DNA of 44,870 bases from Nakamurella leprariae (lineage in GTDB: Bacteria > Actinomycetota > Actinomycetes > Mycobacteriales > Nakamurellaceae). Position 1 is the first letter of the stretch. The number at the start of each line of letters is the position of its first letter. The stretch is taken from contig NZ_JAERWK010000030.1 in assembly GCF_016918035.1 (NCBI RefSeq), positions 1 to 44,870 on the forward strand. The letters run 5' to 3'. A program made the position numbers and the translations under genes. The notes beneath the pieces are model-generated. The model made no database searches, was not told the origin of the DNA, and worked only from the letters and a program-made list of their open reading frames with translations. Shown here in pieces: positions 25,827 to 31,143 of this stretch.

Positions 25827-25910
25827 GTGGCGGACGCCGTGCTCTTCGCTCGTGAACACATCGACCTGATGCGTTCATGCAGTGCTGCCTGTTGCCCTCT
25901 GGATCGCTGA
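25827..25910 (+). CDS. Cysteine-containing regulatory leader peptide
   Basis: A 27-codon ORF whose C-terminal half, AREHIDLMRSCSAACC, matches the actinobacterial family annotated as 'putative leader peptide' (R-x-H-I/V-D-L-x-R ... S-A-x-C). Such peptides normally precede sulfur-assimilation operons. It has three Cys codons, two adjacent, near the end, which suits ribosome stalling when cysteinyl-tRNA is scarce. The GTG lies 7 nt after a -10-like GACACT. Hairpins follow at 25916-25934 and 25995-26016. The next clear gene is the Rrf2 regulator at 26353. Confidence 0.7.
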   Translation: MADAVLFAREHIDLMRSCSAACCPLDR

Positions 25911-25994
25911 CCTCGATGCTCCTGACGGGAGCGTTCCGTCGATCCCTGAGGACCCTCCATGTCTGTCATCCTGCGCCCATGGTCGGGCGGTGAC

Positions 25995-26016
25995 CGGCCG
26001 GCTGTCGTGCCGGCCG
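25995..26016 (+). terminator. Hairpin downstream of the leader peptide, possible attenuator
   Basis: 8-bp perfect stem CGGCCGGC / GCCGGCCG with a 6-nt loop, 85 nt after the leader-peptide stop. A weaker 7-bp hairpin around GCTCC-TGACG-GGAGC (25916-25934) lies between. Either could be the conditional terminator. Confidence 0.4.
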
Positions 26017-26044
26017 TGTCCTTCGGCTCCCGATCCGCCGCGCG

Positions 26045-26395
26045 GTGAGCAGCCATCGTCGGGATCCTGACCTGCGACAGGCCATCGTGGCCCCAATACG
26101 CCACGAATTGCGTCACGAACGGCTTGAGTACGGCTGCCAGTGCCTGATCACCGCCATCGCGACGAACGCAAGTGACGCCCATGTCACCGTGATCGGCGAC
26201 GACGGCGCGGTGTCGGTCCTGGTGGTCGACTCGATGTCGCTGTTCGACCACGACATCGCCCTCGGCGACATCGTCTGGTCACGACGACGACCTCCGCCGC
26301 AGCGGCGCCCGCCGTCAGTCCCGAGCGGCATCTCACGCGCCATACTCGACGGGTGCGCATCTCTGCGAAGACGGACTACGCCCTGCGAGCCATGA
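26045..26395 (+). CDS. Possible small protein or remnant before the Rrf2 gene
   Basis: A 116-codon frame whose middle part (about 26150-26280) has strong G/C third positions and reads as a plausible domain (VTVIGDDGAVSVLVVDSMSL). Its ends do not look coding and it runs 43 nt into the Rrf2 gene. It may be a decayed gene once controlled by the leader peptide, or chance. Not recognised. Confidence 0.25.
   Translation: MSSHRRDPDLRQAIVAPIRHELRHERLEYGCQCLITAIATNASDAHVTVIGDDGAVSVLVVDSMSLFDHDIALGDIVWSRRRPPPQRRPPSVPSGISRAILDGCASLRRRTTPCEP
26341..26346 (+). promoter_or_regulatory. -10-like element for leaderless rrf2
   Basis: CATACT ends 6 nt before the GTG at 26353, implying that the regulator can be transcribed from its own leaderless promoter, independent of the leader peptide upstream. 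Confidence 0.45.
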
Positions 26396-26868
26396 TCGAG
26401 CTGTCGGCGCGTCGGGCCGACGGGTTCGTCAAGGCCGAGGTCGTCGCCGAAGCGCAAGACATCGCGTTGCCGTTCCTGGTCAGCATCTTCAACACGCTGC
26501 GCATCGCCGGTCTGGTGGTCACCAAGCGCGGACCGGACGGTGGGTATCGCCTGGGGCTGGATCCGGAGCAGCTCAGTGTCGCGGACATCATCCGGGTGAT
26601 CGAGGGACCGCTGGCCAACATCGTCGGCGTCGCGCCCGAGGACGTGCGGTACACCGGGTCGACCGAACGACTCAAGGACGTCTGGGTGGCCCTGCGGGTC
26701 GCGATGCGGTCCGTGTTGGAGCAGACGACGCTGGCCGATGTGGCCGGCCGGGCGCTGCCGGCCGAGGTGACCACGCTGCTGGCGCAGGACGGCGCCTGGG
26801 TCAGCCGGCCCCGGCTGCCCGCAGCGCTGACGTCGCCGGCCGCTGCCCTGGACGGCTCCGCTCCGTGA
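26353..26868 (+). CDS. Rrf2-family transcriptional regulator
   Basis: A 171-residue Rrf2 repressor: MRISAKTDYALRAMIELS opening, winged helix with ALPFLVSIFNTLRIAGLV, then the wing KRGPDGGYRLG and ADIIRVIEGPLANIVG. It has no cysteine at all, so it cannot bind an Fe-S cluster as IscR or NsrR do; this makes it more like CymR, the cysteine-metabolism repressor, though that is inference. The GTG start has a CATACT -10 six bases upstream. It lies next to a cysteine leader peptide and the thiazole genes. Its C-terminal 25 residues are low-complexity Ala/Pro/Ser. Confidence 0.88.
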   Translation: MRISAKTDYALRAMIELSARRADGFVKAEVVAEAQDIALPFLVSIFNTLRIAGLVVTKRGPDGGYRLGLDPEQLSVADIIRVIEGPLANIVGVAPEDVRYTGSTERLKDVWVALRVAMRSVLEQTTLADVAGRALPAEVTTLLAQDGAWVSRPRLPAALTSPAAALDGSAP

Positions 26869-26980
26869 CAGCGCCGACTGCTTCCGGACGTCGCCCGGCC
26901 TCGGCCACGGGGCGCGCCGGTCCTGGACCCGGCAGTCCGCCGATCAGCGCGGTGCCGTCACGCGGGTGGATCGGGGATGG

Positions 26981-27754
26981 TCAGCACCGGGGCGGTGAGG
27001 ACGCCTGGGCCCAGAAGCGTTTCGGGATACGGCCGGCCAACCGAGCGTCCCGGCCCGCCGAGACGGCCGCCGCCATGGCCCGTGCCATGCGGACCGGATC
27101 ATCGGCCCGGGTCACCGCAGACGCCAGCAGGACCGCGTCGCACCCGAGTTCCATGGCCTGAGCGGCATCACTGGCGGTGCCCAGCCCGGCATCACAGATC
27201 ACCGGCACGCCGGCCTGGGCCACGATCATCTCCAACGCATGCGGGTTGCAGATGCCCAGCCCGGAGCCGATCGGCGCGCCGAGCGGCATGACGGCGGCGC
27301 AGCCGACGTCCTCCAGACGACGGGCGACGATCGGGTCGTCGGTGGTGTAGGGCAGGACGACGAACCCGTCGTCGACCAGGCGCTGCGCGGCCCGCAGCAG
27401 TTCCACCGCGTCGGGCAGCAGCGTCCGGTCATCGGCCACCACCTCGAGCTTCACCCAGTCGGTGTGCAGCGCCTCCCGGGCCAACTGTGCGGTGAGCACC
27501 GCCTCGGCCGCCGTGTGGCACCCGGCCGTGTTCGGCAGCACCGAGATGCCGTGCCGCCGCACCACCTCCAGCACGCCGGTGCCGCCGCCGGCGTCGACCC
27601 GGCGCATGGCCACCGTGGTCAACTCGGTGCCGGAAGCCAGCAGCGCTGCCTCCAGCACGGTCTGGTTGGGGGCGCCACCAGTGCCCATGATGAGGCGGGA
27701 ACGCAGCGTCCGCCCGGCGATGACCAGGTCGTCGGTGGCTGCGCCGATCGTCAC
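26981..27754 (-). CDS. thiG: Thiazole synthase ThiG
   Basis: Forms the thiazole phosphate of thiamine from deoxyxylulose-5-phosphate, dehydroglycine and ThiS thiocarboxylate. 257 residues, TIM barrel: LIMGTGGAPNQ near 22, the Schiff-base lysine in DWVKLEVVADD (about residue 98), VMPLGAPIGSGLG and PVICDAGLGTASDAAQAMELG near the C-terminus. The GTG at 27754 overlaps the stop of an 11-codon ORF (GTGA) that carries the strong ribosome site. Last gene of thiO-thiS-thiG. Confidence 0.95.
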   Translation of the reverse strand: MTIGAATDDLVIAGRTLRSRLIMGTGGAPNQTVLEAALLASGTELTTVAMRRVDAGGGTGVLEVVRRHGISVLPNTAGCHTAAEAVLTAQLAREALHTDWVKLEVVADDRTLLPDAVELLRAAQRLVDDGFVVLPYTTDDPIVARRLEDVGCAAVMPLGAPIGSGLGICNPHALEMIVAQAGVPVICDAGLGTASDAAQAMELGCDAVLLASAVTRADDPVRMARAMAAAVSAGRDARLAGRIPKRFWAQASSPPRC

Positions 27755-30125: not shown

Positions 30126-30138
30126 GCCGGATCACGGG

Positions 30139-30173
30139 GACGGGGACCAGACCGCTGCGCCCGGATCCCCGTC
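30139..30173. terminator. Hairpin between thiE and the DsbA-like gene
   Basis: 8-bp inverted repeat GACGGGGA / TCCCCGTC with a 19-nt loop, between two convergent genes and overlapping the last bases of the minus-strand gene. Confidence 0.45.
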
Positions 30174-30780
30174 ATCGCGGCAGCGTGGTGTGCTTGAACT
30201 CGTTGAGATCCGGCCACCCGATGAGCAGGTCGACCACCCGTCCGATGGTGGCCAGCGAGCCGCTGGGGTCGGCGTCGGCGGCCGATCGGCTCATCAGTCG
30301 GACGAACACCGCTTGATCGCCCGCGATGAATGTGGGCACCCCCCACACGGAGTGAGAGCCGACGTACCGCTCGTGATCGGCCCGCACGGTGTCCAGCGCG
30401 GTCCCATTGTCGATCCGCGCGAACACGTCCTCAGGGTCCACCCCGTGCTCGGTGAGCACCCCCCGAAGCACCGCCGGGTCCTCCAGGTGCCGGCCCTGGT
30501 CGTGCCGGACGGCGAACAGGGCGCGGTGCACGGCGGGGAACTGCTCGGGGAAGTGGTCGCGCACGGTCACCCCCACCTGCAGGGCCAGGATGCCTCGGTC
30601 GTCATGCGGGTGGTCCCACACGTCCGGCTGACCCTCCTCGACGTGGGCCTGACCGAGCGAGAACGGTGCGAAGTGCACCGTCCAGTCGGCCCCGGCGGCC
30701 AGGCCGGTCAGGATGTGTTCGTGCGCGTTCCGCGCGAACGGGCAGCGGTAGTCCCAGGTGACGGTGAACTCGGCGGTCAT
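30172..30780 (-). CDS. DsbA-family thioredoxin-fold protein
   Basis: A 202-residue DsbA/2-hydroxychromene-carboxylate-isomerase-like protein: WDYRCPFARNAHEH (residues 9-22), the helical insert, then the cis-proline region WGVPTFIAGDQ near 152. The active site is CPFA with a single cysteine (Cys13), so it is not a disulfide oxidant of the CxxC type; mycothiol-linked transferase or isomerase chemistry is more likely. No signal peptide, so cytoplasmic. Good ribosome site (GGAAGGA). Confidence 0.85.
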   Translation of the reverse strand: MTAEFTVTWDYRCPFARNAHEHILTGLAAGADWTVHFAPFSLGQAHVEEGQPDVWDHPHDDRGILALQVGVTVRDHFPEQFPAVHRALFAVRHDQGRHLEDPAVLRGVLTEHGVDPEDVFARIDNGTALDTVRADHERYVGSHSVWGVPTFIAGDQAVFVRLMSRSAADADPSGSLATIGRVVDLLIGWPDLNEFKHTTLPR

Positions 30781-30956
30781 GGGTGGGTCCTTCCGTAGTT
30801 GGTGGTGCGAAACGGGATTCGGGGCTCGTCGAGCCGGGCGAGGGGCGCCCGCCAGCGGGTCACCGGTGGACTCCAGACCCGATCGGATGCGAGAGCGCCT
30901 CCAGAGCAGTCATCCTCGGCGCGAGGCGGGCCGGCGAGGGCCGAGCTCCGCAGTTG

Positions 30957-30984
30957 TTTACTTTTCCGGTCCAGTATGTACAGT
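30957..30984 (+). promoter_or_regulatory. Candidate promoter of cluster 2
   Basis: TTTACT (30957-30962) and TACAGT (30979-30984) are 16 nt apart in an unusually AT-rich patch for this DNA. They predict a leader of about 290 nt that contains the Cys-Cys peptide at 31093 before the first gene at 31285. Confidence 0.5.
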
Positions 30985-31092
30985 AGTGATGGCGCCGAAC
31001 GCATCGGGTCGCGCCAGGGCGCCACCGCCGCGGTGCGCCGCCTGAAGTCCGCGCATCGCTTGGGTGCGCCCGGTCGAGGAGAGGGGTCCGAC

Positions 31093-31143
31093 ATGAACGA
31101 CGTCATGTCGCGGGCCTGTTGTCCCTCGACGCAGCGTCCCTGA
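31093..31143 (+). CDS. Cys-Cys leader peptide before cluster 2
   Basis: A 16-residue ORF, MNDVMSRACCPSTQRP, with a strong ribosome site (GGAGAGGGG). Two adjacent Cys codons lie at positions 9-10. The start lies in a 6-bp inverted repeat (ACATGA/TCATGT, 31091-31108). Downstream, GTGCGG/CCGCAC (31199-31219) can pair before the monooxygenase start. The pattern is that of a cysteine-sensing attenuation leader. Confidence 0.55.
   Translation: MNDVMSRACCPSTQRP

Follow-up and report, generated by a model that had tools for sequence, protein, structure and literature searches.

We analyzed a stretch of 44,870 nucleotides (nt) from Nakamurella leprariae (contig NZ_JAERWK010000030.1, positions 1 to 44,870), hereafter the window, in which three small open reading frames (ORFs) rich in cysteine codons lie on the forward strand, each ahead of a gene with a link to sulfur. 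The original prediction for this locus had interpreted the three ORFs as cysteine-sensing leaders of these genes. All three ORFs are present and translate as it described, and its identification of the neighboring genes was borne out: a regulator of the Rrf2 family devoid of cysteine (0 Cys in 171 codons), thiE, and a monooxygenase-rhodanese fusion. The features that carry the argument are the following:

25827 to 25910, + strand: ORF1, a putative divergent cysteine leader peptide matching the profiles NF042936 and NF042934; an inner GTG start at 25839 is possible
26045 to 26395, + strand: coding-like ORF with a codon-phase signal, the first behind ORF1, 134 nt from it
26353 to 26868, + strand: Rrf2-family regulator without cysteine (TIGR00738, 111 bits, cut-off 73.3)
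29349 to 29364, + strand: TAGCGT box, 7 nt and ATG, a putative leaderless start at the same position as the thiE start in relatives
29362 to 29445, + strand: ORF2, apparently the displaced 5' end of thiE, whose TGA overlaps the thiE ATG (ATGA)
29386 to 29420, + strand: repeat array of 35 nt, with a 12-nt unit in 2.9 copies (Tandem Repeats Finder, 82% matches, score 56)
29442 to 30125, + strand: thiE as now readable (TIGR00693, 199.5 bits, cut-off 145.1)
31093 to 31143, + strand: ORF3, with a cysteine pair and a Shine-Dalgarno stretch
31285 to 33024, + strand: NtaA/DmoA-type monooxygenase fused to a rhodanese domain (TIGR03860, 360 bits, cut-off 279.7; PF00296, PF00581)

It is likely that the three ORFs have separate causes, ORF1 being a divergent cysteine leader, ORF2 the displaced 5' end of thiE, and ORF3 not distinguishable from chance. 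This account is built on the profile match of ORF1, the frame of thiE and the length difference between two copies of this gene, the repeat array, and a leaderless start that is thiE's own in 33 of 48 other loci.

The peptide encoded by ORF1, VADAVLFAREHIDLMRSCSAACCPLDR, contains three cysteines, including one CC. It matched NF042936 (Ms4527A family Cys-rich leader peptide) with 27.2 bits (expectation value, E, of 2.1e-6; cut-off 45) and NF042934 (putative leader peptide) with 18 bits (E 0.0016; cut-off 27). Reading from the inner GTG raised these scores slightly, to 28.3 and 20.3 bits, still below the cut-offs. Because its scores lie below the curated cut-offs, ORF1 is, judged by its sequence, a divergent relative of these cysteine leaders and not a member. 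No match in 31 genomes (this one and 30 relatives) reached the 45 bits of NF042936. At E ≤ 0.01, this profile found matches in 22 of the 31 genomes and in none of 14 control genomes. Within its own genome, at E ≤ 10, ORF1 ranked second best of 12 matches to NF042936 and seventh of 21 matches to NF042934, three others of the latter, not ORF1, passing the cut-off.

For comparison we used 38 leaders, 13 further ones kept by a script from the same genome and 25 from relatives; three of the 28 loci from relatives (L208, L217, L219) gave no peptide, and L067, with its match in a 776-codon frame, was excluded. These leaders displayed the core RRHVDLxRVxSAxC, in which the constant D and the last C were demanded by the search expression itself. 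ORF1 agrees with this core at most positions, with E for R and S for V. Twelve distinct first genes lie behind the leaders of the own genome, and nine of them are monooxygenase, rhodanese or ATP-binding cassette (ABC) genes: six luciferase-like monooxygenases, one rhodanese, an ABC binding protein and an ABC permease. Of the remaining three, two encode a GNAT protein and a DUF1684 protein, and the third had no Pfam match. This genome has at least 13 cysteine leaders, six of them before luciferase-like monooxygenase genes, and the organism appears to make extensive use of organosulfur compounds.

Polycysteine leaderless ORFs of mycobacteria were reportedly the subject of work by Canestrari et al. 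in 2020. By analogy with such mycobacterial leaders, a ribosome would be slowed at the cysteine codons near the end of ORF1, the downstream RNA would be altered, and the next gene would be expressed when cysteine is short. A GACACT stretch 7 nt before the GTG of ORF1 may serve as an incomplete -10-like box. The promoters at this locus are putative, as is any response to cysteine; pattern searches of 25500-31400 returned no promoter and no terminator, the promoter pattern being of the sigma-70 kind, which may not fit this organism.

The original prediction assigned each ORF to its neighbor as a leader, which was not confirmed. This ORF is probably not the leader of Rrf2, because its end lies 442 nt away, because Rrf2 has a -10-like box of its own (CATACT, 6 nt before its GTG), and because no such leader was found upstream of the gene at 24 other Rrf2 loci; moreover, the coding-like ORF lies in between. 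The comparison covered the best 25 Rrf2 loci, the window included, with 1.5-kb flanks scanned for the leader motif. ORF1 as a conserved Rrf2 leader was rejected, as none of the 24 other loci has a family leader upstream of Rrf2, while in L095 and L108 one is present but downstream of it. A Cys-rich small ORF without the motif occurs within 600 nt upstream in four of the 24. The nearest relative (L091, 59% identity) displayed the same CATACT box at the same distance, and a box of the form xAnnnT stands 5-8 nt before the Rrf2 start in 23 of the 25 loci. The regulator itself scored 85.7 bits against the CymR model (cut-off 195) and fell below the IscR cut-off as well. ORF1 is hence either the leader of the 26045-26395 ORF, and perhaps also of the Rrf2 gene that follows, or an orphan lacking its gene. 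For the 26045-26395 ORF, windows between 26025 and 26324 gave a codon-phase signal. It had no Pfam match, only weak matches in seven of 100 relatives (best E 0.0029), and no match at E ≤ 0.01 among 91 candidates from a large database.

ORF2 presents a different case. It encodes MCPASRRRADPCADSCADPCAGLGRCS, with five cysteines in 27 codons, and a full TANNNT box (TAGCGT) stands 7 nt before its ATG. The genome holds a second thi region on another contig, to which positions 26980-30125 of the window align at 79% identity over 3.2 kb, and the thiE of this region is 84% identical to that of the window. The second copy carries the same TAGCGT box; the leaderless start behind it shares the frame of thiE and begins MSITSRSSDD, free of cysteine. 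The start codon lies 134 nt before a fixed codon of the thiE core in the window and 99 nt before it in the second copy. The difference of 35 nt is not a multiple of three, and because of it ORF2 lies in a frame other than that of thiE. The array has this same length of 35 nt. It is the only one detected by Tandem Repeats Finder in 29300-29500, its copies are imperfect, and the second thiE copy has none. Pairwise alignment of the two copies opened one long gap at the array, the exact place of which is the aligner's choice.

Two of the five cysteine codons of ORF2 lie wholly inside the array (29395 and 29407), one at its edge (29419), and two outside; the cysteine run is largely a by-product of the array. 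In the simplest reading, the array has thrown the start of thiE out of frame, and ORF2 is this displaced start. The first codons of a leaderless thiE would thereby have been shifted by the 35-nt repeat, and a ribosome entering at the old start would translate 27 codons, stop at the TGA and, as we infer, restart at the overlapping thiE ATG.

We also compared 48 of the 57 thiE matches outside the window, the second copy of this genome included (L038 was dropped as the same gene as L040). At 33 of these 48 loci, an ATG or GTG in frame with thiE, which can be the gene's own start, has a TANNNT box 5-8 nt upstream, and a cysteine in the resulting N-terminal extension was seen in one of the 33, as a single residue. 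The original prediction had proposed conservation as a check, and for ORF2 the outcome was negative: an out-of-frame leaderless start occurs in none of the 48 loci. With these counts (0 of 48 out of frame, 33 of 48 in frame), ORF2 was rejected as a conserved upstream ORF, as which a leaderless polycysteine attenuator would be expected to occur. The likeness to actinobacterial cysteine leaders on which the prediction drew is retained for ORF1, by profile and below the curated cut-offs, and lost for ORF2, the start of which is thiE's own leaderless site and the cysteine run of which comes largely from the frame-breaking array.

Two further features lie upstream of thiE, the riboswitch on the opposite strand:

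29170 to 29279, - strand: thiamine pyrophosphate (TPP) riboswitch before the thiO-like gene (RF00059, 58.3 bits, gathering score 54.3)
28037 to 29173: thiO-like gene (DAO domain)

The second thi copy (L039, at G000:C14:15000-32000) includes a stretch that matches the window TPP riboswitch and looks alike in the alignment. Between thiE and the monooxygenase operon, the - strand encodes a DSBA-like thioredoxin-fold protein (30172-30780; PF01323, E 5e-10).

ORF3 encodes MNDVMSRACCPSTQRP, with one CC. Its start is not of the leaderless kind: the ATG follows a Shine-Dalgarno stretch, GAGGAGAGGGG, and lacks a TANNNT box 5-8 nt upstream. Searched as two longer in-frame versions, ORF3 had no match in NCBIfam. 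The first gene behind it, after 141 nt, is the fusion monooxygenase, followed by a rhodanese-domain ORF, an NMT1-type binding protein, an ABC ATPase, a permease, and two monooxygenases. In the rhodanese-domain ORF (33021-34667, + strand), the codon-phase signal shifts near 33500 and is restored after about 150 nt, as with two compensating indels.

The abundance of such ORFs was compared with fifteen Markov-1 simulations of one strand. Among ORFs of 12-45 codons, the window has 9 with a cysteine pair on the + strand and 8 on the - strand (simulated mean 3.2 per strand), 11 and 13 with at least three cysteines (mean 11.1), and 2 and 1 with at least five (mean 0.2). The combination of a Cys-rich ORF and a TANNNT box 5-8 nt before it occurs once on the + strand (ORF2) and never on the - strand, with a simulated mean of 0.13. 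ORF2 alone stands out by composition, which has another cause; ORF1 does so by its profile match, and ORF3 by neither. Cys-pair ORFs led by a Shine-Dalgarno stretch form five groups over both strands of the window. One of them, at 25515-25565 on the + strand (MSESSRNGSVDCCGPH), lies opposite the start of a minus-strand gene (24578-25516) and serves as a chance control for ORF3.

The search for homologues of the fusion monooxygenase covered 101 genomes (E ≤ 1e-100) and 394 genomes (E ≤ 1e-90), with only a few first-look candidates scored per genome, and in both cases found them in the own genome only. Fusion proteins with 73% identity occur so far on short contigs from two sources only, and a 56% homologue (L231) has a different neighborhood. 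Of 80 distant loci (at most 44% identity), 17 have some Cys-rich small ORF within 500 nt. In two of these 17, L117 and L119, inspection by eye shows a core like that of known leaders. These two monooxygenase homologues, from Pseudonocardia and Saccharopolyspora, have leaders about 130-150 nt upstream with a CVDL core ending in CLCRG, as judged by eye. In the own genome, the monooxygenase query matched 70 places at E ≤ 0.001, many of them fragments. We surveyed the upstream regions of 20 of the 70, taking only the first start per stop and a rule slightly unlike that of the Shine-Dalgarno grouping in the window. A family leader was present in two of the 20 and an unflagged Cys-pair ORF in five, while a Cys-pair ORF flagged for a Shine-Dalgarno stretch was present in none. 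As a small ORF with a cysteine pair, ORF3 is indistinguishable from a chance occurrence.

How far these ORFs act today can be weighed from the same evidence. We put the chance that ORF1 is an orphaned relic, regulating nothing at present, slightly short of even. Its incomplete -10-like box and its two off-consensus positions would suit a relic, as would the ORF without homologues behind it, with the next identifiable gene 442 nt off, when a coding-like ORF opens 7-315 nt downstream in 34 of the 38 leaders; yet the 26045-26395 ORF is itself coding-like and lies just 134 nt away, and the RNA behind ORF1 folds somewhat better than shuffled versions (z -1.95, 11/200). That ORF3 functions as a cysteine leader of the monooxygenase-rhodanese operon, translated by way of its Shine-Dalgarno stretch, is unlikely. 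In favor of this role, its distance from the gene is that of many family leaders, the genes behind it fit sulfur uptake, and none of the 20 upstream regions has a flagged counterpart. Five groups of comparable ORFs in the window speak against it, as does an RNA from ORF3 to the gene that folds no better than shuffles (z 0.90, 162/200), and no ORF3-like ORF was found at L231 or, by eye, among the 80 distant loci.

The thiE array could be an assembly or sequencing artefact, with thiE intact in the cell, which we judge improbable. The assembly is a draft of 39 contigs, and the shift in codon phase near 33500 is what a pair of indels would leave, but the copies of the array are imperfect (82% matches), unlike a simple duplicated stretch of reads. 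Very improbable, in our view, is that ORF2 is a newborn regulator, in which growth of a 12-nt repeat at a leaderless thiE start created a Cys-rich upstream ORF coupled to thiE through ATGA. If this were so, the supply of charged Cys-tRNA, and hence of the thiamine sulfur donor, would set the translation of ThiE from the window copy only, the second copy retaining the old start. Least credible of all is the model of the original prediction, in which the three ORFs are independent leaders that respond to cysteine and control Rrf2, thiE and the monooxygenase-rhodanese operon, respectively. The likeness of ORF1 to known cysteine leaders, the position of each ORF ahead of a gene with a sulfur link, and a mild clustering (five of the nine + strand Cys-pair ORFs end in 25000-32000) favor it. 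Set against these are the start of ORF2, which in relatives belongs to thiE, the 24 other Rrf2 loci, which lack a family leader upstream (four have a motif-free Cys-rich small ORF), and ORF3, which has no family. Several independent cysteine sensors at one locus are therefore not supported.

Several observations weigh against our own account of separate causes. ORF1 lies under both curated cut-offs, has E and S at two well-kept positions, and follows a GACACT box that is incomplete. At E ≤ 10, searches with NF042936 and NF042934 also found matches in 9 and 10 of the 14 control genomes, none of them above a curated cut-off. An out-of-frame leaderless thiE start was seen in the window alone, so that an assembly error in the array is possible, and 15 of the 48 thiE loci lack a leaderless start in the 150 nt searched. 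Because of these 15 loci, we hold the account of separate causes with marginally less confidence than we otherwise would.

Collectively, these findings tell an ordinary but probable leader peptide apart from two look-alikes. They suggest that, once out of frame, the start of a leaderless gene can mimic a dedicated amino-acid sensor; therefore, a leaderless box with a Cys-rich ORF behind it is insufficient evidence of such a sensor unless paralogues and relatives are checked. In addition, the two thiE copies in one genome are a natural pair for the study of translation restart after a leaderless ORF. Our search, over part of the literature, found among the matches listed no paper on an upstream ORF of thiE and none on the Ms4527A family.

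Candidate cysteine leaders have been described in other bacteria. One study proposed candidate leader peptides with cysteine runs before cys operons in mycobacteria and Propionibacterium acnes and before cbs in Bifidobacterium longum (PMC1262725). Another lists six Cys-rich ORFs in M. tuberculosis, predicted to regulate the downstream gene (PMC9094748), and a third places cysteine genes of M. smegmatis under translation attenuation (PMC13236596), both citing Canestrari et al. 2020. Eight leader peptides of Streptomyces lividans were reported elsewhere; the available part of that paper calls none of them cysteine-dependent, and the metL peptide has three cysteines (PMC8079986).

Among the families with profiles, NF042936 (Ms4527A), NF042933 (Ms5788A) and NF042934 (cis_reg_atten), ORF1 shares R-x-H-I-D-L-x-R-x-C-S-A-x-C-C, the length and the place, and differs in scoring below the cut-offs, in its off-consensus E and S, and in the gene behind it, a coding-like ORF with no Pfam match; neither ORF2 nor ORF3 matched any of the three. 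Like the candidate cys leaders of Seliverstov et al. 2005 (PMC1262725), ORF1 has its cysteine run near the stop and no obvious terminator, but those leaders precede cys and cbs operons and ORF1 precedes the coding-like 26045-26395 ORF. As in the mycobacterial polycysteine leaderless ORFs, ORF1 is short, with cysteine codons near its end and a promoter-like box close to its start. ORF2 looks like these ORFs as well, yet its start is that of thiE. Its closest counterparts are thiE genes of related actinobacteria with a leaderless start (33 of 48 loci), where a TANNNT box likewise precedes the start codon by 5-8 nt; those genes are read in frame, whereas the start codon in the window, after a difference of 35 nt, opens another frame.

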